Of a stretch of 55,172 nucleotides of DNA, positions 15,876 through 32,019 are shown piece by piece (the stretch's first letter is position 1; every line of letters begins with the position of its first letter). Below the pieces are notes generated by a model. It was given only the letters and a program-made list of their open reading frames with translations. It did not search any database and had not been told where the DNA came from. This stretch comes from Acidobacteriota bacterium (lineage in GTDB: Bacteria; Acidobacteriota; Thermoanaerobaculia; Multivoradales; J023). A program made the translations under genes and the position numbers. Location: NCBI GenBank assembly GCA_003697015.1, contig RFGL01000098.1, forward strand, positions 1-55,172. Direction: 5' to 3'.

Positions 15876-16994
15876 TCAGGCGGCGCGGAACTCGGCCAGG
15901 CGGATCGGCTGGCGGCGGGCGCCCCAGCGGCCGGGGGGGCCGTCGAAGCGGCCGGCGCAGGGGGCGTCGCAGTTGCGGCAGCGGCCGTCGTCGGTGAGGT
16001 TCCAGGCGGTGATGACGTACCAGTCGCGGCCGATCAGTCGGGTGCCGCATGCGTGGCAGTAGGTGGAGCCGCCCTCCTCGTCGTGGACGTTGCCGGTGTA
16101 GGCATAGCGCACGCCGTTGGCGAGGGCGATGCTGCGCGCTCGACGGAGGGTCTGAGGCGGGGTCGGGGGGACGTCGAGCATCTTGTAGTCGGGGTGGAAG
16201 GCGGTGAAGTGCATCGGCACGTCCGGCCCCAGCTCCTCGACCACCCAGCGGGTCATGGCGTCGATCTCCTCGTCGGAGTCGTTATGGCCCGGGATCAGCA
16301 GGTTGGTGATCTCGAACCAGACGTCGGTCTCGCGCTTGAGATAGACCAGGGTATCGAGCACCGGTTGCAGGCTGGCGCCGCAGATCTTGCGGTAGAAGTC
16401 CTCGGTGAACGCCTTCAGGTCGACGTTGGCGGCGTCCATGGCGCGGAAGAATTCCCGCCGCGGCTCGGGGCAGATCTCCCCCGCGGTCACCGCCACCGTG
16501 TGGATGCCCCGCGCCCGGCAGGCGGCGGCGACGTCGACCGCGTACTCGAGGAAGATCACCGGATCGTTGTAGGTGAAGGCGACGCTGCGACACCCGGTGG
16601 CCTCGGCGGCGAGGGCGATGGTCTCGGGGTCGGCGGCGTCCGCCAGGGTGTCGATCTGCCGCGACTTGGAGATGTCCCAGTTCTGGCAGAAGCGGCAGGC
16701 CAGGTTGCAGCCGGCGGTACCGAAGGACAGCACCGGAGTGCCGGGGAGGAAGTGGTTCAGCGGCTTCTTCTCGATCGGGTCGACGCAGAAGCCGCTCGAG
16801 CGGCCGTAGGTGGCGAGAACCATCTCGTCGCCGCGGCGGGCGCGGACGAAGCACAAACCGCGCTGGCCGTCGCGCAGGCGGCAAAAGCGGGGGCACAGGT
16901 CGCATTGGATGCGGCCGTCCTCGAGCCGGTGCCAGTACCGCCCGGGGACGATCGCGGTCGGCTCGACCTCGGCGAGGCTCGACTGCGCGGGCAT
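15876..16994 (-). CDS. amrS: AmmeMemoRadiSam system radical SAM enzyme
   Basis: This 372-aa radical SAM protein has the cluster motif CNLACRFC with Cys96, Cys100 and Cys103. It begins with a Cys-rich segment CDLCPRFCRL (31-40) and Cys48 that is characteristic of this family (PflA-like, TIGR04337 type), followed by GFCVDPIEKKPLNHFLPG. The C-terminus has a ribbon of paired cysteines (YCHACG and CRNCDAPC). The family is co-distributed with Memo- and AMMECR1-like proteins, which are absent from this window; the reaction is not settled to my knowledge. The start codon overlaps the stop of the upstream small gene (TGATG), so the two are translationally coupled. Confidence 0.9.
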   Translation of the reverse strand: MPAQSSLAEVEPTAIVPGRYWHRLEDGRIQCDLCPRFCRLRDGQRGLCFVRARRGDEMVLATYGRSSGFCVDPIEKKPLNHFLPGTPVLSFGTAGCNLACRFCQNWDISKSRQIDTLADAADPETIALAAEATGCRSVAFTYNDPVIFLEYAVDVAAACRARGIHTVAVTAGEICPEPRREFFRAMDAANVDLKAFTEDFYRKICGASLQPVLDTLVYLKRETDVWFEITNLLIPGHNDSDEEIDAMTRWVVEELGPDVPMHFTAFHPDYKMLDVPPTPPQTLRRARSIALANGVRYAYTGNVHDEEGGSTYCHACGTRLIGRDWYVITAWNLTDDGRCRNCDAPCAGRFDGPPGRWGARRQPIRLAEFRAA

Positions 16995-17443: not shown

Positions 17444-18646
17444 ATGAGACGGATGAACGCGCACCCGCAATCGAAGCTCTTGCTCGTCACCGTTCTCCTC
17501 GTGCTGGCGGCGTCGCTCGCCGGCTGCAGCGAGAAGGTGGTCAAGATCGGCGTGCTGCTGCCCGAGACCGGCCACGCCGAGCCCTACGGCAGCTCCCTGC
17601 GCCAAGGCGTCGAGCTGGCCTACGAGGAGGTGGTGGCCGACCCGGCCTACCCGCTCACCATCGAGGCGAAGTTCTTCGACACCCGGAGCGATCCGGACCG
17701 CGCCCAGCAGCTGCTGGAAGAGGTCTACCGCGACGGCGCCCTGGTGGCGATCGGCGGCGCCACCTCGGACGAGGCCCTGGCGATGGTGCCGGTAGCCGAC
17801 CGCTTCGACCGCATCCTGCTGTCGCCCTCGGCCTCGACCCCGGAGCTGACCGGCATCTCGTCCAACTTCTTCCGCATCTTCCCCTCCGACCTGCTCGAGG
17901 CGACGCGCATGGCCAACTTCGCCAGCCAGACCCTCAAGCTCAACGAGGTGGTCATCGTCGCCGAGAAGCAGGCCTACGGCCGCAGCCTGGAGACGGTGTT
18001 CAAACAGGAGTTCGAGCGCTACGGCGGCACGGTCCCCGAAGTGGTCGAGTATCCCCCCGAGGCGGCGGACTTCTCCGGCCTGGTCGACTTCGTCGTCGGC
18101 ATCGATGCCGAGGCGGTCTACCTGGCGGGCTACGAGGAGGGCATCGCCAGCATGATCCAGGGGCTGAGGAAGAAGGGCTACCGCGGCAAGATCCTCACCA
18201 CCCACGCCTTCGCCACCCCCAACGCCCTGGTGCGCACCGGCTCGGCCGCCGAAGGGGTGCTGATGACCCAGTCGGTCTTCGACGTCGACAGCGACTACGC
18301 CCACATCAAGTCCTTCGTCACCGCCTTCGAGGAGCGCTACGGCAGCAAGCCCGACCTCTTCGCCGCCCACGGCTACGACGCCATGAAGCTCCTCGCCAAA
18401 GCCCTGGTCGATCGGCCGCTGATCCCCAACGAGGTACGCAAGGGCCTGCGCGCCATCAGCGACTTCCCCGGCGTCACCGGCAGCATCCAATTCGACGAGC
18501 AGGGCGACGTGAAGAAATTCCCGCGGGTCTACATCGTCAGCGACGACCTGGCGGTCTACAACTACGACAGCTACGTCGATGCTCAGAAGCGGGAGCTGAT
18601 GGCGCGGCTGGAAGAGTTGCGCAAGAAGGCGAAGCAGATCAACTGA
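17444..18646 (+). CDS. Branched-chain-type substrate-binding lipoprotein, copy 1
   Basis: This 400-aa protein has a lipoprotein signal (hydrophobic stretch ending LAASLAGC; lipidated Cys about residue 27). The rest has the type I periplasmic-binding fold of Leu/Ile/Val-binding and amide-binding proteins: IGVLLPETGHAEPYG at the start, SPSASTPELTGISSNFFRI in the ligand region, and AAHGYDAMKLLAKAL near the hinge. The last 25 residues are a short coiled coil. GAGAGG lies 6 bases before the ATG. No LivHMGF permease genes are near. The next gene, an ABC-2 permease, follows after 10 bases. A close paralogue lies after the ATPase gene. Ligand unknown; it could be a sensor for envelope or polymer precursors. 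Confidence 0.85.
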   Translation: MRRMNAHPQSKLLLVTVLLVLAASLAGCSEKVVKIGVLLPETGHAEPYGSSLRQGVELAYEEVVADPAYPLTIEAKFFDTRSDPDRAQQLLEEVYRDGALVAIGGATSDEALAMVPVADRFDRILLSPSASTPELTGISSNFFRIFPSDLLEATRMANFASQTLKLNEVVIVAEKQAYGRSLETVFKQEFERYGGTVPEVVEYPPEAADFSGLVDFVVGIDAEAVYLAGYEEGIASMIQGLRKKGYRGKILTTHAFATPNALVRTGSAAEGVLMTQSVFDVDSDYAHIKSFVTAFEERYGSKPDLFAAHGYDAMKLLAKALVDRPLIPNEVRKGLRAISDFPGVTGSIQFDEQGDVKKFPRVYIVSDDLAVYNYDSYVDAQKRELMARLEELRKKAKQIN

Positions 18647-18656
18647 GCCGGCAGCC

Positions 18657-19463
18657 ATGTGGAGAACGGCCCGCCGTCTGGTCCGCTACCGCGGGCTGCT
18701 CGCCATCCTCACCGTCCGCGAGCTCAAGGCACGCTATCGCGGCTCGGTGATGGGCTGGCTGTGGTCGCTGGTCAACCCGCTGGTGCTGCTGGCGGTCTAC
18801 ACCTTCGTCTTCGGCAAGATCTTCCATCCCCACGACGAGTCGATCAGCCAGCCCTATGCGCTCTTCCTGATCAGCGGCCTCTTCCCCTGGATCTGGCTGC
18901 AGTCGTCGCTGCTCGAGGGAGCCGCCTCGCTGCTGACCAACGCCGGGCTGATCCGCAAGGCGACGTTCCCCGCCGAGGTACTGCCGATGGTGCCGGTGCT
19001 GGCCAACCTCGTGCACCTGGCCCTCGCCCTGCCGGTGATCGCCGCCGCCGTCGTCGTCGCCCGCCACCTGGGCTACGACGTCGGCGGACCCGGCGCTCTC
19101 CTGATGCCCCTGGTGGTGCTCCTCCAGCTGCCCCTGATCGCCGGCCTGAGCCTCGGCCTGGCGGCGCTCAACGCCCACTTCAAGGACGTTCGCGACCTGC
19201 TGATGAACGTCCTCACCGTGCTCTTTTTCATGACCCCGATCCTCTACAGCATCCGGATGCTCGACCGACACGACGCGGTGCGCGCCCTGGTGGCCTACAA
19301 CCCCCTGACGCCGTTTATCCTCGCCTACCAGGAGACCCTCTTCTTCGGCCGCCTGCCGGGGCCCGCGTCGTGGCTCGCCATGGCGGCGATCAGCGCCGGG
19401 GCCTGGGCCCTCGGCACGGCCCTCTTCGGCCGCCTGAGCGACACCCTGGTGGAAGCGGTATGA
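18657..19463 (+). CDS. ABC-2 polysaccharide/polyol export permease (Wzm-like)
   Basis: This 268-aa permease has six predicted helices and the ABC-2 family N-terminus RELKARYRGSVMGWLWSLVNP, which is very characteristic of Wzm/TagG/KpsM-type proteins. A later segment FMTPILYSIRML and NPLTPFILAYQETLF also match. It should export an undecaprenyl-linked or lipid-linked glycan with the ATPase encoded next; the start of that gene overlaps this stop (ATGA). It lies between two substrate-binding lipoprotein genes. Confidence 0.9.
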   Translation: MWRTARRLVRYRGLLAILTVRELKARYRGSVMGWLWSLVNPLVLLAVYTFVFGKIFHPHDESISQPYALFLISGLFPWIWLQSSLLEGAASLLTNAGLIRKATFPAEVLPMVPVLANLVHLALALPVIAAAVVVARHLGYDVGGPGALLMPLVVLLQLPLIAGLSLGLAALNAHFKDVRDLLMNVLTVLFFMTPILYSIRMLDRHDAVRALVAYNPLTPFILAYQETLFFGRLPGPASWLAMAAISAGAWALGTALFGRLSDTLVEAV

Positions 19464-20812
19464 GCGCGGCGACGAACGACCCGCCGGAGGTGATCCGGGT
19501 CCGCGGCCTCAGCAAGCACTACCGTCGCACCGCCGCCGGCCACAAGCTGCGTACCCTGAAGAGCGCCTTGCTCGAGCGCAGTCTGATCCGCGGCCTGCGT
19601 CCGGAGGAGGCGATCCCGGCGCTGCAGGACCTGAGCTTCACGGTGCGGGCGGGGGAGGCGGTGGGGCTGATCGGCGCCAACGGCTCGGGCAAGTCGACCC
19701 TGCTCAAGGTGCTGGCGGGCATCCTGCGGCCGACCGCCGGCACGGTGGAGGTGGACGGCCGAGTGGCGGCGATGATCGAGCTCGGCGCCGGCTTTCACCC
19801 GGAGATCTCCGGCCGCGAGAACGTCTTCATCAACGGCGCCATCCTCGGCCTCAGCCGGCGGCAGATCGCCGAGCGCTACGACGACATCGTCGCCTTCGCC
19901 GGGCTGGAGGATTTCATCGAGGAACCGGTCAAGAACTACTCCTCCGGCATGTACGTGCGTCTCGGTTTCGCCGTCGCCATCCACACCGATCCGGAGATCC
20001 TGCTGGTCGACGAGGTGCTGTCGGTGGGCGACGAGGCCTTCGCCCACAAGTGCCTGCGGCGCATCGAGGAGTTCCTCGCCCGCGGCAAGACCCTGGTGCT
20101 GGTCAGCCACGCCCTGCCCCTGGTCGAGTCGGTGTGCGACCGGGCCCTGTGGCTGGAGCGTGGCCGGCTGCGCCTCGCCGGCCATCCGCGACGGGTGGCC
20201 GATGCCTACCGCCAGGCGGTGGCGGAGAGCGAGGGCGAAGCCCACCGCGCCGCCAAGATCCTGCGCGAGGACGAGTCCGCGGACGAGGCGACGCCGCCGC
20301 CCGAGCCGGCGGCGGAGGAGGAGGACGCGGACGCCGTCGAGGCGGCGGAGGTGCTGCGCTGGGGCTCGGGGGAAGCGCGGATCGAGCGCCTGCGGGTGCT
20401 GGCCGGGGGAGAGGAGCGCTACCACCTCCACTGCGGCGAGCGCGTCGGCTTCGAGGTCGAGGTCAACGCCGACCGCGACTTCACCGACTTCGTCTTCGGC
20501 ATCGCCATCCAGACGCCGCGCGGCGTCGAGTGCTGGGGCACCAACACCGACCTCGAGGGTTTCCAGCCCGAGCTGCTGCCGGCCGGCACCACCACCTTCA
20601 CCATCACCTGCCCGAGCCTGCGCCTGGCGCCGGGCGAGTACCTGGTCGACGTCGCGGTCCACGCCCGCGACGGCACCCCCTACGATTACCGCCGCAAGCT
20701 CGCCGGCTTCACCGTCACCGCTGCCGGCGGCGGCGTCGGGGTCTATTTCCCCGAGCACGCCTGGACCTTCCCCCCGTCGGTCCGCTGGCGGCGGCGCGGC
20801 GACGCCGGCTGA
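19460..20812 (+). CDS. ABC transporter ATPase with C-terminal glycan-binding domain (Wzt-like)
   Basis: This 450-aa ATPase has Walker A GANGSGKST at 72-80, signature YSSGM at 160-164, Walker B LLVDEVLS at 181-188 and the switch His217. An acidic linker (about 265-305, many Glu/Asp/Ala) leads to a C-terminal beta domain of roughly 140 residues like the Wzt carbohydrate-binding domain that recognises the end-modified O-polysaccharide before export. The ATG overlaps the permease stop by 4 bases. This is the energy-supplying half of an ABC glycan exporter; no glycosyltransferases lie beside it in this window. Confidence 0.9.
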   Translation: MSAATNDPPEVIRVRGLSKHYRRTAAGHKLRTLKSALLERSLIRGLRPEEAIPALQDLSFTVRAGEAVGLIGANGSGKSTLLKVLAGILRPTAGTVEVDGRVAAMIELGAGFHPEISGRENVFINGAILGLSRRQIAERYDDIVAFAGLEDFIEEPVKNYSSGMYVRLGFAVAIHTDPEILLVDEVLSVGDEAFAHKCLRRIEEFLARGKTLVLVSHALPLVESVCDRALWLERGRLRLAGHPRRVADAYRQAVAESEGEAHRAAKILREDESADEATPPPEPAAEEEDADAVEAAEVLRWGSGEARIERLRVLAGGEERYHLHCGERVGFEVEVNADRDFTDFVFGIAIQTPRGVECWGTNTDLEGFQPELLPAGTTTFTITCPSLRLAPGEYLVDVAVHARDGTPYDYRRKLAGFTVTAAGGGVGVYFPEHAWTFPPSVRWRRRGDAG

Positions 20813-20821
20813 GTCGGTACC

Positions 20822-20895
20822 GGAGGGGCGGAAGCCCCCCTCCTCCGCCGGCTCAGCGGACGGCGACGGCCGCCCGGGAACCAGATTCCGGGCGG
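20822..20895 (+). terminator. Two hairpins between the exporter and the second lipoprotein gene
   Basis: GGAGGGG (20822-20828) pairs with CCCCTCC (20837-20843) ten bases after the ATPase stop. CCGCCCGG (20870-20877) pairs with CCGGGCGG around 20888-20895. There is no T-run. The pair may reduce read-through into the following gene. Confidence 0.35.
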
Positions 20896-21038
20896 CGGAA
20901 GAAGGCCGTCAACCTGCCGCCGAGCGGCGGGCTGAGGCCGGCGGTGGAGCGGCGCGGCGAGTTCTGAGAGAATGGGCGCTCGCCGCCGCTCGAGCGGCCG
21001 GCGTCACCGACACCCACGCGACGAGAAGGGCAGGCATC

Positions 21039-22262
21039 ATGAGTCAACGCATTTCGAGCCCCGGCACGCTCCTGCTCGGCATTTCCGTGGCCGCCCTCGC
21101 GCTGATGACCGGAGGCTGCGGCGAGAAGATCGCTCACCTGGGGGTGATCGTGCCCGAGAGCGGCCAGTTCAAGACCTACGGCCAGGCGATCCGCAAGGGC
21201 ATCGAGCTGGCGGCCGACGAGATCCGCGCCGACCCGGGCTACCCGTTGAAGCTTCAGGTCGACTACGCCGACTCGCAGAGCGATCCGAAGAAGGCGGCGG
21301 AGCTGCTGGATCAGATGTACGACAACGGCGTGATCGTGGCGATCGGCGGCGCGGTCACCGGCGAAGCGTTGGAGATGGTCCAGGTCGCCGACCAGCACGA
21401 CCGCGTCCTGGTGTCGCCGACCGCTTCGAGCCCGGAGCTGACGCAGATCTCGAGCAACTTCTTCCGCATCTACCCCTCGGATTTTCTCGAGGCCAACAAG
21501 ATGGCGCTCTTCGCCCGCGAGACCTTGGGCCTCGACAAGATCGTCATCATGGCCGAGGAGCAGGACTACGCCACCGGCATCCAACAGATCTTCAAGCAGG
21601 AATTCGAGCGTCTCGGCGGCGAGGTGCTGGAGGTGGTCGAGTATCCCCCCTTCACCACCGACTTCTCCGGCCTGGCCGAATTCGTCAAGGGCTTCGATCC
21701 GCCCGGCGTCTACCTGGCGGGCTACGACACCAGCGTCGCCGAGATGATCCGCGCCCTGCGGGCGGTGGGGTGCAAGGGCAAGATCTTGACCACCGCCGCC
21801 TTCGCCACCCCGTCGGCCATCGCCCGCGCCGGCGAGGCGGCGGTCGGCGTGCTGTTGACCAAGGTGGTGTTCGAGGTCGACAGCGAGCACGCCCACATCA
21901 AGTCCTTCGTCGAGGCCTTCGAGAAGCGCTTCGGCGAGAAGCCCGACTGGCTCGCCGCCCACGGCTACGACGCCATGAAGGTGGTGGCGGAGGCGATCCG
22001 CGATCGGCCGCTGATCACCAGCGAGATCATCAAGGGCCTGCGTGCGATCAAGGATTTCCCGGGCGTCACCGGCAGCATCCAATTCGACGAGAAGGGCGAC
22101 GTGAAGAAGTTCCCCCGCGTCTACCTGGTGAGCAAAGACCTGACGCTCTACAACTACGACAGCCACGCCGAAGAGCAGCGCCGGCTGCTGTTGCAGAAAC
22201 GGCGCGAGCTCGAGGAACGCCTCAAACGGCTGCAACGCGAGGCCGAAGAAATCGGCGGCTGA
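21039..22262 (+). CDS. Branched-chain-type substrate-binding lipoprotein, copy 2
   Basis: This 407-aa lipoprotein (signal ending LMTGGC) is a clear paralogue of the gene at 17444. The two share long stretches, including SSPELT/STPELT, QISSNFFRIYPSD, IKSFVEAFE and DFPGVTGSIQFDE. It also has the type I periplasmic-binding fold and a C-terminal coiled coil that is longer and more charged here (about 35 residues). AGAAGGG lies 8 bases before the ATG. A 226-base gap with hairpins separates it from the ATPase gene, so it may have its own promoter. The duplicated pair flanking an exporter suggests a shared role, but none is known. Confidence 0.85.
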   Translation: MSQRISSPGTLLLGISVAALALMTGGCGEKIAHLGVIVPESGQFKTYGQAIRKGIELAADEIRADPGYPLKLQVDYADSQSDPKKAAELLDQMYDNGVIVAIGGAVTGEALEMVQVADQHDRVLVSPTASSPELTQISSNFFRIYPSDFLEANKMALFARETLGLDKIVIMAEEQDYATGIQQIFKQEFERLGGEVLEVVEYPPFTTDFSGLAEFVKGFDPPGVYLAGYDTSVAEMIRALRAVGCKGKILTTAAFATPSAIARAGEAAVGVLLTKVVFEVDSEHAHIKSFVEAFEKRFGEKPDWLAAHGYDAMKVVAEAIRDRPLITSEIIKGLRAIKDFPGVTGSIQFDEKGDVKKFPRVYLVSKDLTLYNYDSHAEEQRRLLLQKRRELEERLKRLQREAEEIGG

Positions 22263-22341
22263 GCATCCGCCCTGACCCCGGCGGTCGCAGCGAAGCGTCC
22301 GCCGGCGGCGGCCTGCGCCGCCGACGACCGGAGAGCCGAAC

Positions 22342-22626
22342 ATGGCAGATCCCGCTCCCAATCAGGAGCTCAACGTCAAGATCACCGACGACGAGCTGCG
22401 CGGCCGCTACGCCAATGCGGTCCGCGTCACCCACACCCGCGAGGAGTTCATCCTCGACTTCATCAACATGGTGCCGCCGCAGGGCGTGGTCACCGCCCGG
22501 GTGGTGACCAGTCCCGGCCACTTCAAGCGGCTGATCCGCGCCCTCGCCACCAACCTCGAGCTGTACGAGAAGCGCTTCGGCGAGATCGCCGACGCCGAGA
22601 GCTCGGCTCGCGATCCGATCAACTGA
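22342..22626 (+). CDS. DUF3467 family protein
   Basis: This 94-aa soluble protein matches the DUF3467 pattern: [20 protein letters not shown] followed by [17 protein letters not shown] and a helical tail containing [13 protein letters not shown]. The family is widespread and its function is unknown. It lies 46 bases before hppD on the same strand and is probably cotranscribed with it or with the preceding lipoprotein gene. Confidence 0.85.
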
Positions 22627-22672
22627 GCCACCCGGCTCGCGGCCGCCCGCGGCCCGGAGGAGAGACGTTACG

Positions 22673-23770
22673 ATGAGCGACAATCCCTTGCGCCTGCGCA
22701 AGATTCACCACGTCGAGATGTGGGTCGGCGACGCCAAGCAGGCAGCCTACTACTACCGTCACGCCTTCGGCTTCTCCCAGCTCGCCTACGCCGGGCTGGA
22801 GACCGGCTGGCGCGACGCCAGCGCCTACGTCCTGGGGCAGGGGCAGGCGCGTCTGGTGCTGAAGTCGCCCCTGCGCCCCGGCACCGAGATCGGCGAGCAC
22901 GTGGTCCGCCACGGCGACGGCGTCAAGGACATCGCCTTCCACGTCGCCGACGCCGACGCCGCCTTCGACGCCGCGGTCGCCCGCGGGGCGGAGATCGCTG
23001 CCGAGCCCCACGACCTGCACGACCGCCACGGCACGGTGCGGCGGGCGACGATCAAGACCTACGGCGAGACCGTCCACTCGTTCATCTCCACCCGCGACTA
23101 CCGCGGCCCCTTCCTGCCCGGCTACGAGGCGAACGAGATCCCGGTCCACGACGCCGGCCTGCTGCGCTTCGACCACATCGTCGGCAACGTCGAGCTCGGC
23201 AAGATGGAAGAGTGGGCGCGGTGGTACCACGAGGTGCTCGGCTTCAAGCGCATCCTCCACTTCGACGACCAGCAGATCTCCACCGAGTACAGCGCCCTGA
23301 TGAGCGTCGTCATGTCCGACGGCTCCTACTCGATCAAATTCCCGATCAACGAGCCCGCCAGCGGCCGCAACAAGAGCCAGATCGAGGAGTTCCTCGAGCA
23401 CTACGGCGGGCCCGGCGTGCAGCACCTGGCACTGCTCACCCGCGACGTCGTCAAGACCGTCGGCCGGCTGAAGATGCAGGGGGTCGACTTCCTCACCGTG
23501 CCCGACGCCTACTACGAGGAGCTGCCGCGGCGCGTCGGCCGGCTGGACGAGAAGCTCAGCTCCCTGCGCCGCCTCGGCATCCTCGCCGACCGCGATCACG
23601 AGGGGTATCTGCTGCAGATCTTCACCCAGCCGGTGGTCAGCCGGCCGACCCTCTTCTTCGAGATCATCCAGCGCAAAGGCAGCCGCGGCTTCGGCGAAGG
23701 CAACTTCAAGGCCCTCTTCGAGGCCCTCGAGCGCGAGCAGGCGCGCCGTGGCAACCTGGTGAGGGCCTGA
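22673..23770 (+). CDS. hppD: 4-hydroxyphenylpyruvate dioxygenase
   Basis: This 365-aa enzyme converts 4-hydroxyphenylpyruvate to homogentisate in tyrosine catabolism. The three Fe(II) ligands are visible: His168 in RFDHIVGNV, His251 in GVQHLALLT and Glu330 in LFFEIIQR. Two vicinal-oxygen-chelate halves are present (residues 10-140 and 165-340). Length is normal. GGAGGAGAG precedes the ATG by about 8 bases. The next gene, homogentisate dioxygenase, starts 4 bases after its stop and performs the following step. Confidence 0.95.
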
Positions 23771-23774
23771 GGCG

Positions 23775-24947
23775 ATGTACTACTACACGCTCGGCCGCAT
23801 CCCGCCCAAACGCCACACCCAGTTCCGCCAGGACGACGGCTCCCTCTTCCACGAGGAGGTGATGGGCATCCACGGTTTCGCCGGCATCCAGTCGATCCTC
23901 TACCACCGCCGGCCGCCGACCCGGGTGCGGCAGATCGAGCTGGTCGAACGAATCGAGATCCCCTACGAGGAGCAGGGACCCTTGCGCCACCGTGCCTTCC
24001 GCGCCGCCGCCGTGCCGCCGGGGGGCGACCCGGTCAGCGGCCGGGTGCCGCTGATGGGCAACCACCAAGTGCTGATCTCGGTGGTCCGGCCGACCGAGGC
24101 GATGGGGTACCACTACCGCTTCGCCCACGGCGACGAGGTGATCTTCGTCCACGACGGCAGCGGCGTGCTCGAGAGCCAGTTCGGCCTCCTGCGCTACCGC
24201 CCCGGCGACTACCTGGTCCTGCCGACGGGCGTGCTGTGGCGCCTGCTGCCGGACGACGGGGTCGAACAGCGCATGCTGGTGATCGAGGCCATGGGCCACG
24301 TCACGCCGCCGGAGCGCTACCTCAACCGCTACGGCCAGTTCCTCGAGCACTCGCCCTACTGCGAACGCGACCTGCGGCCGCCGGAGGAGCTGCGCACCTA
24401 CGACGAGGAAGGCGACTTCGAGGTGCGGGTCAAGGCCCGCGGCGGCATCTCCCGCCTGCGCTACGACCACCACCCCCTCGACGTCGTCGGCTGGGACGGC
24501 CATCTGTGGCCCTACGCCTTCAACGTCGCCGACTTCGAGCCGATCACCGGCCGCGTCCACCAGCCGCCGCCGGTGCACCAGACCTTCGCCGGGCCCGGCT
24601 TCGTCGTCTGCTCCTTCGTGCCGCGCCTCTTCGATTACCACCCGCAGGCGATCCCGGCGCCCTACAACCACTCAAACGTCGATTCGGACGAGGTGCTCTA
24701 CTACGTCGAGGGCGACTTCATGTCGCGCAAGGGGGTCGAGCGCGGCTCCTTCACCGTGCATCCCAACGGCATCCCCCACGGCCCCCACCCCGGCACCTAC
24801 GAAGCCTCGATCGGCAAGGACCGCACCGACGAGCTGGCGGTGATGATCGACACCTTCCACCCCCTGCGCATCACCACCCACGCCCTGGCGCTCGAGGACC
24901 CGGCCTACGCCTACAGCTGGCTCGAATCGGCACCGGCGGCGACCTGA
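23775..24947 (+). CDS. hmgA: Homogentisate 1,2-dioxygenase
   Basis: This 390-aa enzyme opens the homogentisate ring to maleylacetoacetate. The C-terminal cupin carries the iron site: His299 and Glu306 in NHSNVDSDE, and a further His in IPHGPHPG (335/338). The N-terminus HTQFRQDDGSLFHEEVMG is typical of the shorter bacterial form. It directly follows hppD. The next enzymes (maleylacetoacetate isomerase, fumarylacetoacetase) are not in this window. Confidence 0.93.
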   Translation: MYYYTLGRIPPKRHTQFRQDDGSLFHEEVMGIHGFAGIQSILYHRRPPTRVRQIELVERIEIPYEEQGPLRHRAFRAAAVPPGGDPVSGRVPLMGNHQVLISVVRPTEAMGYHYRFAHGDEVIFVHDGSGVLESQFGLLRYRPGDYLVLPTGVLWRLLPDDGVEQRMLVIEAMGHVTPPERYLNRYGQFLEHSPYCERDLRPPEELRTYDEEGDFEVRVKARGGISRLRYDHHPLDVVGWDGHLWPYAFNVADFEPITGRVHQPPPVHQTFAGPGFVVCSFVPRLFDYHPQAIPAPYNHSNVDSDEVLYYVEGDFMSRKGVERGSFTVHPNGIPHGPHPGTYEASIGKDRTDELAVMIDTFHPLRITTHALALEDPAYAYSWLESAPAAT

Positions 24948-25703: not shown

Positions 25704-26432
25704 ATGGCCTACACCGTTGTCGACATCGAAGCTGGCAGCGTCGTCTTTGATCGCGGCGACGAAGGGGACGTCATGTACCTGGTGCAGGCCGGCGAGGTCG
25801 AGGTGCTGCGCGACCTCGACGACGATCCGCGGCCGCTGGCGGTCTTCGAGCGCGGCGATTTCTTCGGCGAGATGGCGATTCTCGAGCGCCAACCCCGCAC
25901 CCACGCGGTGCGGGCCCGCACCGACGCCAAGCTGGTGAAGATCGACGCCGGCGACTTCGCCCACATGCTGACCCGGAATCCCGAGATCGCGGTGCGGATG
26001 ATCCGCAAGCTGTCGCGGCGGTTGACGGCCACCGAGGAGAAGCTCTTCCGCGCCTGGCGCGGCGAGGACGCGCTGGGCGACGACACCCACGCCACCGGCC
26101 GCCGCCGGGCGCGCCTGGTGCACCTGGCCGAGGGCCGTCCCGGTGCGGTCTTCCCGCTCGGCGACGGGCCGGAGTCGACCGTCGGCCGGCTCGACCCGAT
26201 CAACGGCATCCACCCCGACGTCGACCTGACGGCGATCGACCAGCAGCTGTCGACCAGCCGCCGTCACGCCCGCTTCCTGCGCCGCGACGGCAAGCTGCTG
26301 CTGGTCGAAGACAAGGCGACCAACGGCACCTTCGTCAACGGCCGGCGGCTGGTGCCGACCGAGCCGGTGGAGCTGCACGGCGGCGAGGCGGTGACCTTCG
26401 GCGCCGTCCACATGCGCTTGCTGGTCGATTGA
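25704..26432 (+). CDS. Cyclic-nucleotide-binding/FHA domain fusion protein
   Basis: This 242-aa cytoplasmic protein has an N-terminal cNMP-binding domain (about 1-115, with FERGDFFGEMAILERQPRTH, matching the phosphate-binding cassette) and a C-terminal FHA domain (about 140-240: STVGRLDP, STSRRHARF, DKATNGTFVNGR), which binds phosphothreonine. The cassette has the conserved FGE and an Arg-Thr-like RQPRTHAVRA, so it may bind cAMP or cGMP. It could link cyclic nucleotide and Ser/Thr kinase signalling. A TAGCAT box and purine-rich GAGGGAGGGG lie upstream. Confidence 0.85.
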   Translation: MAYTVVDIEAGSVVFDRGDEGDVMYLVQAGEVEVLRDLDDDPRPLAVFERGDFFGEMAILERQPRTHAVRARTDAKLVKIDAGDFAHMLTRNPEIAVRMIRKLSRRLTATEEKLFRAWRGEDALGDDTHATGRRRARLVHLAEGRPGAVFPLGDGPESTVGRLDPINGIHPDVDLTAIDQQLSTSRRHARFLRRDGKLLLVEDKATNGTFVNGRRLVPTEPVELHGGEAVTFGAVHMRLLVD

Positions 26433-26557: not shown

Positions 26558-27718
26558 ATGCAGACGCTTCTCGACACCGAAAGCGCGGTCAAGAACCGCT
26601 ACGGCGAGGCGGCAGGGCGGCGCGCCCCCGATCTCTGCTGCCCGGTCGATTACGACCCCCGATACCTCGAAGCCATCCCCCAGGAAGTGCTCGAGCGCGA
26701 CTACGGCTGCGGCGATCCCAGCCGCTACCTCAACGCCGGCGAAACGGTGCTCGACCTGGGCAGCGGCACCGGCAAGATCTGCTTCATCGCCTCCCAGGTC
26801 GTGGGGCCGGAGGGATCGGTGATCGGCGTCGACATGACCCGCGAGATGCTCGAGGTGGCGCGCCGCAATGCGCCGCTGGTGGCGGAGCGGGTGGGCTACG
26901 CCAACGTCAGCTTCCGCCGCGGACGGATCCAGGACCTGGCCCTCGACCTCGACCTGCTCGACGCCGAGCTCGCCCGCCGGCCGGTGCAGGACGCCGAGGG
27001 CGCGCTCGCGCTCGAAGGCCTGATCGAGCGCCTGCGCCGCGAGTCGCCCCTGGTGGCCGACGATTCGGTCGACGTGGTGGTCTCCAACTGCGTCCTGAAC
27101 CTGGTGGCGGCGTCCTACAAGCGCCAGCTCTTCGCCGAGATCTACCGCGTCCTGCGGCGCGGTGGACGGGCGGTGATCTCCGACATCGCCAGCGACGAGC
27201 CGGTGCCCGAGCACCTGCGACAAGATCCGGAGCTGTGGAGCGGCTGCATCTCCGGCGCGCTGACCGAAGACGGCTTCCTCGAGGCCTTCGAGCAGGCCGG
27301 CTTCCATGGCATCCGCATCCTCGAGCGCCAGCGCGAACCCTGGAGAACGGTCGAGGGCATCGAGTTCCGCAGCTTGACCGTCGAGGCATTCAAGGGCAAA
27401 GAGGGCCCTTGCTGGGAACGCAACCAGGCGGTGATCTACCGCGGCCCGTTCAAGGAGGTGCTCGACGACGACGGCCACCGCATGGAGCGCGGCAAGCGCT
27501 ACGCGGTATGCGACAAGACCTTCAAGCTCTACCGGCAGGCCCCGTATCGCGAGCACTTCGACTTCGTCGAGCCGCGGCGGGAAATCCCCCTGGAGGACGC
27601 CAGGCCCTTCGACTGTACGCGCACCGCCCTGCGCCATCCGCGCGAGACCAAGGGCGAGGACTACGACGCCACCACCGAGGCGGCGGGGGAGTGCTGCGCG
27701 CCGGGCACCTGCTGCTGA
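26558..27718 (+). CDS. arsM: ArsM-type arsenite methyltransferase
   Basis: This 386-aa SAM-dependent methyltransferase has the SAM motif LDLGSGTGK at 65-73. The cysteines that bind and reduce arsenic in ArsM are all present: Cys27-Cys28 in LCCPVDYDP, Cys51 in DYGCGDP, Cys178 in SNCVLNL and Cys230 in SGCISGAL. The C-terminus ends in a Cys pair motif, ECCAPGTCC. An insertion of about 40 residues (roughly 127-168) interrupts the fold between the SAM motif and NCV. AGGAAGGA lies 10 bases before the ATG, which is preferred over an upstream GTG. No arsR, arsB or arsC is near; instead a radical SAM gene follows after 1 base. Methylation of arsenite is the family function; the coupling to a natural product is inference. 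Confidence 0.85.
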   Translation: MQTLLDTESAVKNRYGEAAGRRAPDLCCPVDYDPRYLEAIPQEVLERDYGCGDPSRYLNAGETVLDLGSGTGKICFIASQVVGPEGSVIGVDMTREMLEVARRNAPLVAERVGYANVSFRRGRIQDLALDLDLLDAELARRPVQDAEGALALEGLIERLRRESPLVADDSVDVVVSNCVLNLVAASYKRQLFAEIYRVLRRGGRAVISDIASDEPVPEHLRQDPELWSGCISGALTEDGFLEAFEQAGFHGIRILERQREPWRTVEGIEFRSLTVEAFKGKEGPCWERNQAVIYRGPFKEVLDDDGHRMERGKRYAVCDKTFKLYRQAPYREHFDFVEPRREIPLEDARPFDCTRTALRHPRETKGEDYDATTEAAGECCAPGTCC

Positions 27719-27719
27719 G

Positions 27720-28646
27720 ATGGCGGTGAGCAAGACCCTGCACCAAGCTGCCCGAGACGGCGGCGCCGCCGCCGGGGAGAGCGCCCGCGACGTGCCGAAG
27801 GTGGAGCTGCGCGCCCTCGACACCCTGTGGTTCCAGGTCGCCGGCACGGTGTGCAACCTGGCCTGCAGCCACTGCTTCATCTCCTGCTCGCCGACCAACC
27901 GCACCCACGAGCACATGCGCCTGGCGGACGTCTTGCCCTACCTCGAGGAGGCGCGCCGTCTGGGGGTCAAGGAGTACTACTTCACCGGCGGTGAGCCGTT
28001 CTTGAACCCCGACATGGAAGCCATCCTCGAGGCCACCCTGAAGCAGGGGCCGGCGACCGTGCTGACCAACGGCCTGCTGCTCGATGACGGGCGCTGCTCG
28101 CGGCTCGCCGCCCTCGCCGCCGGCAGCGACTACTCCCTCGACCTGCGCGTCTCTCTCGACGGCTACGATGCCGCGACCAACGATCCGATCCGCGGCGAAG
28201 GCACCTTCGAGCGCATCCTCCAGGGCATCGAGAACCTGGCGGCGGCAGGGCTCAATCCGGTGGTCACCGTCACCGAGGTGCACGCCGGCAACGCCACCGC
28301 CGAAGGACGCCGGCGGTTTCTCGACCTGCTGCGCGCCCACGGCGTCGCACAGCCGCGGCTCAAGATGCTGCCGCTCTTCCAACTCGGCGCCGAGGCCGAG
28401 CGCAGCGGCGCCTACGAGAGCTGGCAGCAGCTGCGACGCGGCGATGCGCCGCCGGAGGGCTGGGACCACCTGCAGTGCACCACCTGCCGCATGGTCACCG
28501 ACCAGGGGGTGTGGGTGTGCCCGATCCTGGTCAACGAGCCGGGCGGCAAAATGGGCCAACGGCTGGCCGACAGCCTCGGCGACTTCCCCCTCGACCATCC
28601 GGCCTGCTGGACCTGCCACGTCTACGGCGTGAGCTGCAAGACATGA
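27720..28646 (+). CDS. Radical SAM protein with C-terminal Cys-rich region
   Basis: This 308-aa protein has the radical SAM cluster CNLACSHC (Cys45, 49, 52), the GGEP motif in YYFTGGEPFLNPDM, and six C-terminal cysteines (253, 256, 267, 296, 299, 306) that look like one or more auxiliary iron-sulfur clusters (SPASM/twitch-like). I did not recognise a named subfamily: it is not obviously ArsS (DUF3641) nor is ArsL assignable. It lies 1 base after the methyltransferase stop and overlaps the next gene by ATGA. It probably acts on the arsenical produced by the neighbour, or modifies a ligand. Reaction unknown. Confidence 0.8.
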   Translation: MAVSKTLHQAARDGGAAAGESARDVPKVELRALDTLWFQVAGTVCNLACSHCFISCSPTNRTHEHMRLADVLPYLEEARRLGVKEYYFTGGEPFLNPDMEAILEATLKQGPATVLTNGLLLDDGRCSRLAALAAGSDYSLDLRVSLDGYDAATNDPIRGEGTFERILQGIENLAAAGLNPVVTVTEVHAGNATAEGRRRFLDLLRAHGVAQPRLKMLPLFQLGAEAERSGAYESWQQLRRGDAPPEGWDHLQCTTCRMVTDQGVWVCPILVNEPGGKMGQRLADSLGDFPLDHPACWTCHVYGVSCKT

Positions 28647-29659
28647 GCAACCGCATCCCGGAAGATCACCAGGCCAAGACCGCCAAGGCGTCGCGCAAGG
28701 CCAAGCTCACCGCCCATCGCGGCCTCGCCACCTGGGGCGAGAAACTGGTGCCGTTGGGCGAGTTTCGCCGCGCCGTCGACGGCGCCGGCCGCCGCCTGAG
28801 CGATGCGCAACGCGACGCCGCGATCGAGCGCTTCACCGCCCCTGTCGGCGACGGCGTGCCGGTCGAAGGGCCGTACCGCCGGGTGGCGGTGTGCGGCGGC
28901 GTCTACGCCAATGCCTACGCTCTCGAGGCCCTGCTCGACGACGCCCGGCGGCGCGGCGCCGAAGCGATCTACTGCCTCGGCGACCTCGGCGGCTTCGGCC
29001 CGCAGCCGGAGCGCGTCTGGCCGCTTCTGGTCAACGGCGGCGTGCGCACCATCCAGGGCAACTACGAGGCCTCCCTGGCCAGCGGCCGGGACGATTGCAA
29101 CTGCGGCTACGCCGACCCGCGCGACAATCACTACGCCGCCATCTCCTACCGCTACACCGCCCAGCACTCGTCGCCGGCGTTCAAGGCCTGGATGGGGGAG
29201 CTGCCCGAGCGCCGGCGGATCCGCGTCGGCGAGCGCGAGCTGCTGCTGGTTCACGGCTCGCCGCGGCGGATCAACGAATTCCTCTTCGCCTCCACCTCGC
29301 CGGTGGACTTCCTCGAGCTGCTGGTGGCGCAGAACCGCTGTCACGGCATCCTCTGCACCCACACCGGCCTCCACTGGCACCGGCGCCTGCCGTCGGGGGC
29401 GGACGTGATCAACGCCGGCGTCATCGGCCGGCCGGCCAACGACGGCCGTACCGCCGTGTGGTACGCCATGCTCGGCTGCGGCACCGACGGCACCCTCGAG
29501 GTCGAGCACGTGCCGCTTTCGTACGACCACCAGGCCCTGGCCCGCGACATGCGGCGGGAGGGTCTGCCCGAGCCCTTCGTCGAGACGGTGCTCACCGGCT
29601 GGTGGACCACCTGCCTGGAGATCCTGCCGGCGCGCGAACGCGCCGCCGGGCGCTTCTGA
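28643..29659 (+). CDS. Metallophosphoesterase-fold protein with altered metal site
   Basis: This 338-aa protein has calcineurin-like features: LGDLGGFGPQPE (Asp114), QGNYEASLAS in place of GNHD, LLVHGSPRRINEF and CTHTGLHW. But the first motif reads CGGVYANAYALEALL: the usual Asp-x-His-Gly-Asn is Gly86-Val-Tyr88-Ala-Asn90, so the two metal ligands of motif I are missing. Either it binds one metal or it no longer cleaves phosphoesters. An N-terminal 75-residue helical extension is present. It overlaps the radical SAM gene by 4 bases. Confidence 0.75.
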   Translation: MSNRIPEDHQAKTAKASRKAKLTAHRGLATWGEKLVPLGEFRRAVDGAGRRLSDAQRDAAIERFTAPVGDGVPVEGPYRRVAVCGGVYANAYALEALLDDARRRGAEAIYCLGDLGGFGPQPERVWPLLVNGGVRTIQGNYEASLASGRDDCNCGYADPRDNHYAAISYRYTAQHSSPAFKAWMGELPERRRIRVGERELLLVHGSPRRINEFLFASTSPVDFLELLVAQNRCHGILCTHTGLHWHRRLPSGADVINAGVIGRPANDGRTAVWYAMLGCGTDGTLEVEHVPLSYDHQALARDMRREGLPEPFVETVLTGWWTTCLEILPARERAAGRF

Positions 29660-29666
29660 TCCGCCG

Positions 29667-30869
29667 ATGCGCAGCCGCCGACCTCATCTCGCCATCCTCG
29701 GTGCCGGCCCCACCGGCCTCGACGCCGCCCTCGCCGCCGCCGAGGGTGGATTCCCCTTCACCGTCTACGAGGCCGCGCCCCGGGTCGCCGGCCACGTCGC
29801 CGACTGGCGCCACGTGCGGCTCTTCACCCCGTGGTCGATGAACGCCTCGCCGCGCATGCGCCGTCACCTCGCCGAGGCCGGGCGGCCGGTGCCCGACGAC
29901 GGCTCCTATCCCACCGGCGGCGAGCTGATCGACGCCCTGCTCCAGCCGCTGGCCGAGCTGCCGCCGCTGGCCGCTCATCTGCGCCTCGGCACGCGGGTGG
30001 TCGGGATCGGCCGCGAGGGCCTGCTCAAGCACGAGGAGATCGCCACCGAAGAGCGCGCCCGCCGGCGCTTCCGCCTGCTGCTGCGCGACGACCTGGGGCG
30101 CGAGCGCGTCGCCTATGCCGGCGCGGTGCTCGACTGCACCGGCGCCAGCCAGCCCAACGCCTTGGGCGACGGCGGCATCCCGGCCCCGGGGGAGGCCAGC
30201 GCGGCCGGCGTCATCCGCCACGACATCCCCGACTTCGCGGGCGAGAACGGCGCCTGGGCCGGGCGCACCGTGTTGCTGGTGGGCGGCGGCCATTCCGCCC
30301 AGACCGCGGCGCGCGACTTTCTCCAGCACGTTGCGTCGGCGCCCGGCTCGCGCCTGATCTGGGCGGTGAAGAGCGAGCATCCGACCTGGGGCGAGGTGGC
30401 GGACGACCCGCTGCCCGCCCGCGCCGAGCTCGCCGCCTTCGCCCGCCGCCTCGCCGCCTCGCCGCCGCCGGCGGTCGAGCTGCGCACCGCCGCGGTGGTC
30501 GAGGCCCTGGCGCCGAGCGAGGACGGCGTCGAGGTCGTCCTGCGGCGCCCCGGCGGCGCCGAGACCGTGCGCGCCGACCGCGTTCTGGCCCTGGTCGGCC
30601 GGGTCGGCGACCACCGGCTCTACCGCCAACTCCAGGTCCACGAGTGCTACGCCACCTGCAGTCCGATGAAACTCGCCGCCGCCCTCCTCGCCCAGAGTGG
30701 CGCCGGCGGCGACTGCCTGGCCCAGACCAGCCTGGGGCCGGAGACCCTGCGCAACCCCGAGCCCCGCTTCTTCATCCTCGGCATGAAGTCCTATGGCCGG
30801 CGCAACGACTACCTGATGCGGGTCGGCTTCGAGCAGGTGGACGAAGCCTTTCGGTTGCTGGAAGAATAG
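29667..30869 (+). CDS. FAD/NAD(P)-binding oxidoreductase
   Basis: This 400-aa flavoprotein has two Rossmann fingerprints: LGAGPTGLDAA (12-17 GxGxxG) for FAD, and LLVGGGHSAQTAARD in the middle for NAD(P). It resembles single-component flavin oxidoreductases or monooxygenases of the thioredoxin-reductase/flavin-monooxygenase superfamily; FTPWSMNASPRMRRHL follows the first sheet. It begins 7 bases after the metallophosphoesterase stop and is followed by hemH after 4 bases. A redox step on the arsenical or on a haem-related intermediate is possible. The substrate is not known. Confidence 0.75.
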   Translation: MRSRRPHLAILGAGPTGLDAALAAAEGGFPFTVYEAAPRVAGHVADWRHVRLFTPWSMNASPRMRRHLAEAGRPVPDDGSYPTGGELIDALLQPLAELPPLAAHLRLGTRVVGIGREGLLKHEEIATEERARRRFRLLLRDDLGRERVAYAGAVLDCTGASQPNALGDGGIPAPGEASAAGVIRHDIPDFAGENGAWAGRTVLLVGGGHSAQTAARDFLQHVASAPGSRLIWAVKSEHPTWGEVADDPLPARAELAAFARRLAASPPPAVELRTAAVVEALAPSEDGVEVVLRRPGGAETVRADRVLALVGRVGDHRLYRQLQVHECYATCSPMKLAAALLAQSGAGGDCLAQTSLGPETLRNPEPRFFILGMKSYGRRNDYLMRVGFEQVDEAFRLLEE

Positions 30870-30873
30870 CGCC

Positions 30874-32019
30874 GTGCCAAAGAACCTCTTCGAAGGCGAG
30901 CCGGGTTACCAGCACGGCGAGATCCCGGCGGTAGGGGTCCTGCTCGCCTTCCTCGGCACCCCGGAAGCGCCGACCGCCGCCGCTCTCAGGCCCTACCTGC
31001 GGCAATTCCTCTCCGATCCGCGGGTGATCGAGATGTCGCGCCCCGCGTGGTGGCTGATCCTCAACCTCTTCGTACTGCCCTTTCGACCGCGCAAGTCGGC
31101 GCAGCTGTACGCCAAGATCTGGACCGACGAGGGCTCGCCGCTCCTGGTCATCAGCCGGCGCCAGGCGGCAGCGATCGAGAAGCGGCTGAAGAGCGAGATC
31201 GGTACCCCGGTGCACGTCGCCCTCGGCGCCACCTACGGCCGGCCATCGATGCGCCAGGCGCTCGAATCCCTGCGGGCCAGAGGCTGCCGGCGGCTGCTCT
31301 TCTTTCCCCTCTTCGCCCACTATTCCTCGACGTCCACCGGCGCTGCGTTCGACGCTCTGACGGCGGTCCTCGGCCGCTGGCGCTGGCTGCCCGAGCTGCG
31401 CACCATCTTCAGCTACCACGACGAGCCGGCCTACGTCCGCGCCCTGGCGGCGGGCATCCGCCGGCGCTGGCGGGCCGAGGGCGAGCCGGAGAAGCTCGTC
31501 ATGTCGTTTCACGGCATCCCCCAGCGCTATCTGGAGAACGGCGATCCCTACCACTGCCAGTGCCTCAAGACCGGACGGCTGCTGGCCGACGAGCTGGGAC
31601 TGGCGGAGGACCGCTGGCTGGTCACCTTCCAGTCGCTCTTCGGTCGCGAGGAGTGGATCAAGCCCTACACCGACGTGACGCTCCAAGCGCTGGCGCGCGC
31701 CGGGGTCAAGCACGTCGACGTCGTCTGCCCGGGCTTCGCGGCCGATTGCCTGGAGACCCTGGAGGAGATCGAGGAGCAGAACCGCGAGTTCTTCCTCGCC
31801 GCCGGCGGCGAGACCTTCCGCTATCTGCCGGCGCTCAACGACCGTCCCGACCACATCGACCTGCTGGTCGACCTCATCCGCCGCAATCTGCACGGCTGGG
31901 TGGTGCCGAAGGAGGACTGGGACGCCGCCGCGGTGCAGGCCGAGGCCGAGGCCGTCCGCCGGCGGGCCGAGGCGCGAATGCGATCGCCGGCCCGTGCCGA
32001 CGGCGGCGGCGGGGGCTGA
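30874..32019 (+). CDS. hemH: Ferrochelatase
   Basis: This 381-aa enzyme inserts Fe(II) into protoporphyrin or coproporphyrin III to make haem. The catalytic His lies in MSFHGIPQRY (His213) and the Glu in CPGFAADCLETLEEI (Glu294). The start is GTG (MPKNLFEGEP). The C-terminus has a 30-residue Glu/Ala/Arg extension. It is the last gene of the methyltransferase operon; why haem synthesis is linked to it is not clear, and it may simply be cotranscribed. Confidence 0.92.
   Translation: MPKNLFEGEPGYQHGEIPAVGVLLAFLGTPEAPTAAALRPYLRQFLSDPRVIEMSRPAWWLILNLFVLPFRPRKSAQLYAKIWTDEGSPLLVISRRQAAAIEKRLKSEIGTPVHVALGATYGRPSMRQALESLRARGCRRLLFFPLFAHYSSTSTGAAFDALTAVLGRWRWLPELRTIFSYHDEPAYVRALAAGIRRRWRAEGEPEKLVMSFHGIPQRYLENGDPYHCQCLKTGRLLADELGLAEDRWLVTFQSLFGREEWIKPYTDVTLQALARAGVKHVDVVCPGFAADCLETLEEIEEQNREFFLAAGGETFRYLPALNDRPDHIDLLVDLIRRNLHGWVVPKEDWDAAAVQAEAEAVRRRAEARMRSPARADGGGGG

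Follow-up and report, generated by a model that had tools for sequence, protein, structure and literature searches.

Formation of carbon-arsenic bonds by radical S-adenosylmethionine (SAM) enzymes is known from ArsS, which adenosylates arsenic, and ArsL, which transfers a 3-amino-3-carboxypropyl radical (PMC12159101, PMC8552651). ArsS operons belong to a biosynthetic pathway (PMC12159101), and ArsL has only three conserved cysteines, C194/198/201 (PMC8552651). Here, we describe a five-gene operon of an Acidobacteriota bacterium in which an ArsM-type methyltransferase gene precedes genes for a radical SAM protein (rSAM), a degenerate metallophosphoesterase-fold protein (MPE), a flavoprotein, and the ferrochelatase HemH. 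The window, meaning the whole stretch of DNA that was analyzed, is the 55,172-nucleotide contig RFGL01000098.1, and its assembly, GCA_003697015.1, is called the window genome. We favor, with some reserve, the reading that the operon encodes an arsenosugar-like (organoarsenical) pathway in which rSAM and MPE do the job of ArsS.

A conserved rSAM-MPE gene pair

The five genes lie on the plus strand with gaps of 1, -4, 7, and 4 bases, and rSAM and MPE meet in a 4-base ATGA overlap. A first-pass annotation of the sequence had described this operon with the same gaps, and the open reading frame coordinates agree exactly. The arrangement of ArsM, rSAM, MPE, and often the flavoprotein is not due to chance, as it recurs in many independent genomes. 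We define the module as the rSAM-MPE gene pair, commonly with the flavoprotein. A search with MPE of 297 Acidobacteriota genomes, the sample used for all counts in that phylum, found 19 close homologues, the window's included, and wherever the stretch was long enough, rSAM directly preceded or overlapped MPE and the flavoprotein was often present. When 84,980 genomes were scanned with an alignment of rSAM, at least 80 loci were retained, and neighborhood counts were taken over 93 unique loci. Near rSAM, MPE was found at 82 of these, the flavoprotein at 48, ArsM at 23, a TIGR04282-like gene at 21, HemH at 10, and a TIGR04169-like gene at 7. The conserved unit is therefore rSAM-MPE, commonly joined by the flavoprotein, with ArsM often alongside in certain clades. 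Hosts of the module include Acidobacteriota, Myxococcota, Planctomycetota, Calditrichota, Fibrobacteres, Ktedonobacterales, and others. No NCBIfam family covers rSAM, MPE, or the flavoprotein, and we found no description of the module in the open-access literature searched, subscription papers being mostly outside that search. We conclude that the rSAM-MPE module is real, conserved, and unnamed. We note that a named strain, Lujinxingia vulgaris TMQ2 (L123; labels L and G denote loci and genomes), has the module with no ArsM nearby and that the near-complete chromosome of Acidobacteria bacterium Mor1 (L097, CP011806) has the module, ArsM, PiT, and a TIGR04282-like gene.

The rSAM protein was first described as not clearly ArsS or ArsL, and its scores and motifs now rule out both. 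Eight cysteines are invariant, three in a CxxxCxxC motif at positions 45/49/52 and five C terminal to it. PF04055 was the only domain reported in the Pfam scan, and the C-terminal DUF3641 domain, a trait of ArsS, was not reported there. The ArsS model TIGR04167 (listed in PMC13188914) gave 57.1 bits against a cutoff of 300, and no other NCBIfam family cutoff was reached. Moreover, the traits of ArsL, a CX3CX2C motif near residue 194 and just three conserved cysteines, were absent. Though not an ArsS, rSAM may work like one.

The metallophosphoesterase-fold label given to MPE holds for the fold, and the protein proves to be a degenerate member of the family. MPE passes the gathering score of PF12850 (Metallophos_2) with 30.3 bits against 27, and its predicted structure (mean predicted local distance difference test score [pLDDT], 91) matched 3QFM (SapH, an asymmetric Ap4A hydrolase) in Foldseek with an E value of 4e-17, as well as 3RQZ. 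The two-metal site (DxH, GD, GN, H, GHxH) is not intact. At site 1 of the window MPE, the aspartate and the two histidines are replaced by G86, Y88, and G242, and the site 2 ligands D114, N140, H204, and H240 are present. In all 49 of 49 aligned homologues, DxH of motif I has become GxY, GHTH has become THTG, and the site 2 ligands are invariant; metal site 1 has therefore lost three ligands. In the same phylum, six canonical relatives retain SD(I/V)H(G/A)N and GHTH. We infer that the role of MPE is one-metal or noncatalytic. The N-terminal extension of MPE (28643-28870) is mostly confidently predicted and occurs in the Thermoanaerobaculia clade, where ArsM usually adjoins; shorter homologues are without it.

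ArsM occurs with the module or with ArsS

The first gene is, as judged from its sequence, an ArsM-type methyltransferase. Residues C51, C177, and C228 align with the cysteines of YGCG, SNCV(C/L)NL, and LxxxC(L/I)xGAL in solved arsenite methyltransferases (4KW7/4FR0 chains), so that the full set of motifs initially reported is indeed there. The top NCBIfam model was NF040538, for arsinothricin-type ArsM, at 341.8 bits under a 500-bit cutoff, followed below their cutoffs by the ArsM models NF008823 (203 bits; cutoff, 263) and NF038099 (129 bits; cutoff, 400). The first model named neither for arsenic nor for an ArsM-like selenoprotein scored 68 bits. Thus, arsenic models score far above any other, which speaks against a clustering with nonarsenic methyltransferases, the outcome that the first-pass annotation had raised against its own proposal. 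As the best models are all ArsM and none exceeded its cutoff, we treat the protein as a separate ArsM subfamily, and its orthologues are 55 to 77% identical. At another locus (L162:7933-10043, genome G001), the gene right behind an ArsM of this subfamily (70% identity) encodes a radical SAM protein of yet another, third kind, which shares 32% identity with the window rSAM and scores 99 bits with the Rv1681 family and 67 bits with ArsS; no close MPE homologue was found there. Elsewhere (L127:10660-11819), an ArsM behind rSAM-MPE is broken across two frames in a metagenome-assembled genome, by either a frameshift or an assembly error.

ArsM of the window type, defined by an E value of <1e-100, was found in 17 of the 297 Acidobacteriota genomes. 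The module is present in 8 of these 17 genomes versus 11 of the 280 others (Fisher P = 9.8e-7, uncorrected for relatedness), and ArsS is present in 0 of the 8 module-bearing versus 7 of the 9 module-free ArsM genomes (Fisher P = 0.0023, likewise uncorrected). The eight genomes with the module and ArsM span seven families, the seven with ArsS and ArsM span six, and ArsM of the window type lies directly beside ArsS in five genomes. In the ArsM tree, ArsS-linked and module-linked proteins interleave, which forces several changes of partner. Moreover, in the Calditrichota loci L130 and L155, the ArsM that accompanies the module is from another, distant lineage, and ArsM appears to have joined the module by independent recruitment of two unrelated lineages. 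Exclusion between the module and ArsS was not significant phylum-wide (1/19 versus 44/278; P = 0.18). The window genome gave no ArsS match.

Neighbors, importers, and competing readings

Genes annotated for arsenosugar synthesis accompany the module in relatives. At the Elusimicrobia locus L106, both TIGR04282 and TIGR04283 exceed their cutoffs, and the locus also has DUF547-like and TVP38-like proteins (identified by eye) that are seen in ArsS operons too. The TIGR04282 homologues at ~21 of the 93 module loci are divergent. TIGR04169-like proteins occur at seven module loci without ArsM, with 113 to 118 bits where scored (cutoff, 120), and matches over the cutoff are otherwise mostly right beside ArsS. 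Both TIGR04169- and TIGR04283-type genes are found in module operons that lack ArsM.

Several findings weigh against an arsenosugar-like pathway. ArsM is not a neighbor at 70 of the 93 loci, and several near-complete genomes that carry the module, such as G278, G055, G137, and G050 (all at least 96% complete), yielded no convincing ArsM of one type or the other. Occurrence of the rSAM subfamily apart from ArsM had been named at the outset as grounds for rejection, and in part it is what we see; some of the loci without ArsM still hold arsenosugar-annotated genes. Genome G266 has both the module and ArsS, and G345 carries the module together with an ArsM-ArsS operon. Canonical ArsM exceeds its cutoff in 150 of the 297 Acidobacteriota genomes, and finding it in other module genomes is therefore no enrichment; we dropped the canonical ArsM of module genomes with ArsM-less loci as support once this baseline was known. 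TIGR04282 exceeds its cutoff in 95 of the 297 and is too common genome-wide; therefore, only its position beside the module counts, and its presence at the genome level was likewise dropped. In the window genome, the sole TIGR04282 gene sits on another contig and TIGR04169 was not found. The word "arsenosugar" in the NCBIfam names itself rests on guilt by association. Finally, a forced end-to-end profile alignment of rSAM with ArsS pairs all eight cysteines, but the Rv1681-family, ScmF, and mycofactocin models outscore the ArsS model on rSAM, and because they do, the likeness in cysteine layout is not evidence of membership.

Perhaps the rSAM-MPE core, with or without the flavoprotein, serves a function of its own unrelated to arsenic, for instance in phosphorus, nucleotide, or cofactor chemistry, and shared regulation or transport led certain lineages to add ArsM and the arsenosugar-like genes to it. 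At loci in Myxococcota, Planctomycetota, and Ktedonobacterales, the core has no arsenic gene in its vicinity; several near-complete genomes have the module and no ArsM; some of the associated importers are of phosphate, phosphonate, or major facilitator superfamily (MFS) type; and the MPE fold descends from phosphoesterases. A nonarsenic core does not readily account, however, for an ArsM that, in the Acidobacteriota sample, has ArsS as its partner in some genomes and the module in others, for the recruitment of two unrelated ArsM lineages, or for TIGR04169- and TIGR04283-type genes in module operons devoid of ArsM. We consider it unlikely, though the strongest of the alternatives.

Importers are built into several of these operons. 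Locus L031 is an unbroken nine-gene run, glycosyltransferase (GT)-rSAM-MPE-ArsM-PstS-PstC-PstA-PstB-flavoprotein; in L079 and L081, ArsM and rSAM flank the Pst genes (PstSCAB); and L174 reads GT-ArsM-PstSCAB-flavoprotein. PiT occurs close to ArsM in L033, separates rSAM from MPE in L155, and is part of the ArsM-ArsS operons L157, L158, L160, and L173 as well. MFS transporters are found at the module loci L106, L115, and L131. A phosphate/arsenate importer beside ArsM would fit the use of arsenic better than defense against it. We note that at L042:1356-5107, L046, and L101, in genomes without ArsM, an ATP-binding cassette (ABC) importer of the 2-aminoethylphosphonate type, which could import arsonates, stands between a TIGR04282-like gene and rSAM-MPE. 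We also note that the ArsM-ArsS operon of G142 (L160:8288-15284) continues with PiT, a TVP38-like protein, a MerA-like flavoprotein, TIGR04283, and a methylthioadenosine phosphorylase that might plausibly strip adenine from an adenosylated arsenical.

Importers rather than efflux pumps (PstSCAB, PiT, the aminoethylphosphonate-type ABC systems, and the MFS proteins) could also mean that organoarsenicals such as arsenosugars or arsonates are taken up and broken down, with rSAM, MPE, and the flavoprotein cutting or reworking the carbon-arsenic bond or the sugar part. Uptake and breakdown would explain the loci without ArsM. ArsM and two families of glycosyltransferases are biosynthetic in kind, however, and the same partners occur in ArsS operons, which are biosynthetic (PMC12159101); we take breakdown to be improbable.

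Simple detoxification of arsenic by methylation, with the downstream genes unrelated, is more doubtful still. On its own, ArsM usually serves to detoxify arsenic, and HemH is clearly a housekeeping passenger. No ArsR, ArsB/Acr3, or ArsC was found by Pfam scans in the 10 genes on either side of the operon, however, in agreement with the first-pass annotation, which had seen no arsR, arsB, or arsC nearby. Acr3 is absent genome-wide from the window genome, where ArsB and ArsC were not searched genome-wide, and it occurs in just 2 of 19 module genomes. Moreover, relatives carry arsenate/phosphate importers within their operons, and the adjacency of ArsM, rSAM, and MPE is kept across families. We regard detoxification as very improbable.

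ArsS can be a selenoprotein and ArsM-like enzymes can act on other soft metalloids, but selenium or another soft element in place of arsenic is hardly credible, as phosphate-type importers suit arsenate and not selenium, all close methyltransferase models are arsenic ones, and in the operons inspected we noticed no gene of selenium metabolism.

A putative pathway and its relation to described systems

The arsenosugar-like pathway that we favor could run as follows. Arsenate would enter via phosphate-type importers and be reduced to arsenite, which ArsM would methylate. The rSAM protein would then draw on a [4Fe-4S] cluster and a C-terminal auxiliary cluster to attach a carbon fragment, from SAM or another source, to methylated As(III). 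MPE, holding at most one metal, would bind or present the substrate or product and would not act as a normal two-metal phosphoesterase. The flavoprotein might set the redox state of arsenic or supply electrons, and in relatives, TIGR04282/TIGR04283 glycosyltransferases would complete the sugar part. Gene order, the patterns of co-occurrence and replacement, the lost motifs, and the fold are observed; from these, we infer arsenic as the substrate, each of these steps, and the organoarsenical product. The first-pass annotation is borne out in the ArsM kind of the methyltransferase and in an rSAM that is neither ArsS nor ArsL, and the neighbors in relatives point toward the organoarsenical synthesis that it had proposed. 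It had also counted ferrochelatase among the partners, and that part is not supported. HemH exceeds the TIGR00109 cutoff (296.6 bits against 124.6) and, as the only ferrochelatase of the window genome, is probably housekeeping. It accompanies the module in some close relatives only and belongs to the operon in the window lineage but probably not to the pathway.

A bolder proposal, which we put forward tentatively, is that the module takes the place of ArsS in an arsenosugar-like pathway, forming carbon-arsenic bonds of a new class, and, where ArsM is missing, acts on inorganic or imported arsenic, across Acidobacteriota, Myxococcota, Planctomycetota, Calditrichota, and others. If so, it would be a third radical SAM route to such bonds, spread over many phyla, with a phosphatase-fold partner short of one metal site. 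It would widen known organoarsenical biology and provide a marker in genomes for arsenic metabolism missed by current annotation. A testable question is whether the module cleaves SAM when As(III) or methylarsenicals are present.

Just upstream of the operon lies a gene for a protein with cyclic nucleotide monophosphate (cNMP)-binding and forkhead-associated (FHA) domains (Table 1), a homologue of which is likewise upstream of the module in L085, L087, and L094; it is probably outside the pathway. A second radical SAM protein is encoded outside the operon, on the minus strand (15876-16991). Positions 17453-24947 encode two ANF-receptor-type periplasmic binding proteins, an ABC-2/Wzt-like exporter, a DUF3467 protein, and two-domain glyoxalase/dioxygenase-like and homogentisate-dioxygenase-like proteins, the last two suggesting tyrosine catabolism.

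Table 1. The operon and the adjacent upstream gene in the window
Feature	Position	Strand	Length (amino acids)	Remarks
cNMP-binding and FHA domain protein	25704..26432	+		Just upstream of the operon
ArsM-type SAM methyltransferase	26558..27718	+	386	Cysteines C51, C177, C228; C-terminal CCAPGTCC
Radical SAM protein (rSAM)	27720..28646	+	308	CxxxCxxC (C45, C49, C52) and C253, C267, C296, C299, C306
Degenerate metallophosphoesterase-fold protein (MPE)	28643..29659	+	338	Site 1 lost, site 2 kept; N-terminal extension of ~75 amino acids
FAD/NAD(P)-binding oxidoreductase (flavoprotein)	29667..30869	+	400	Pyr_redox_2 type, unnamed subfamily
Ferrochelatase HemH	30874..32019	+		GTG start; sole copy in the genome

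How the operon compares with described systems depends on the protein considered. The ArsM-ArsS arsenosugar pathway, with the partners TIGR04282, TIGR04283, and TIGR04169, shares the ArsM subfamily, the kinds of partners and importers, and the eight-cysteine rSAM layout, but the ArsS operons inspected are without an MPE-fold protein, and the window rSAM departs from ArsS in its low score and missing DUF3641 domain. The arsinothricin cluster arsQML likewise sets a radical SAM protein (ArsL) beside an ArsM, and the window ArsM is nearest to its NF040538 type; the window operon is without ArsQ, however, and its rSAM carries the CxxxCxxC motif much nearer the N terminus, with five further cysteines. 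The best solved relatives of rSAM by sequence and fold are the SPASM/twitch-type enzymes BlsE (7VOB) and SkfB (6EFN), yet identity to them is low, at 18 to 22%. Finally, MPE shares the fold of SapH and keeps the CxCxY segment and site 2 ligands of its canonical relatives, but unlike these, it has glycine, tyrosine, and glycine where they have the aspartate and two histidines of site 1.

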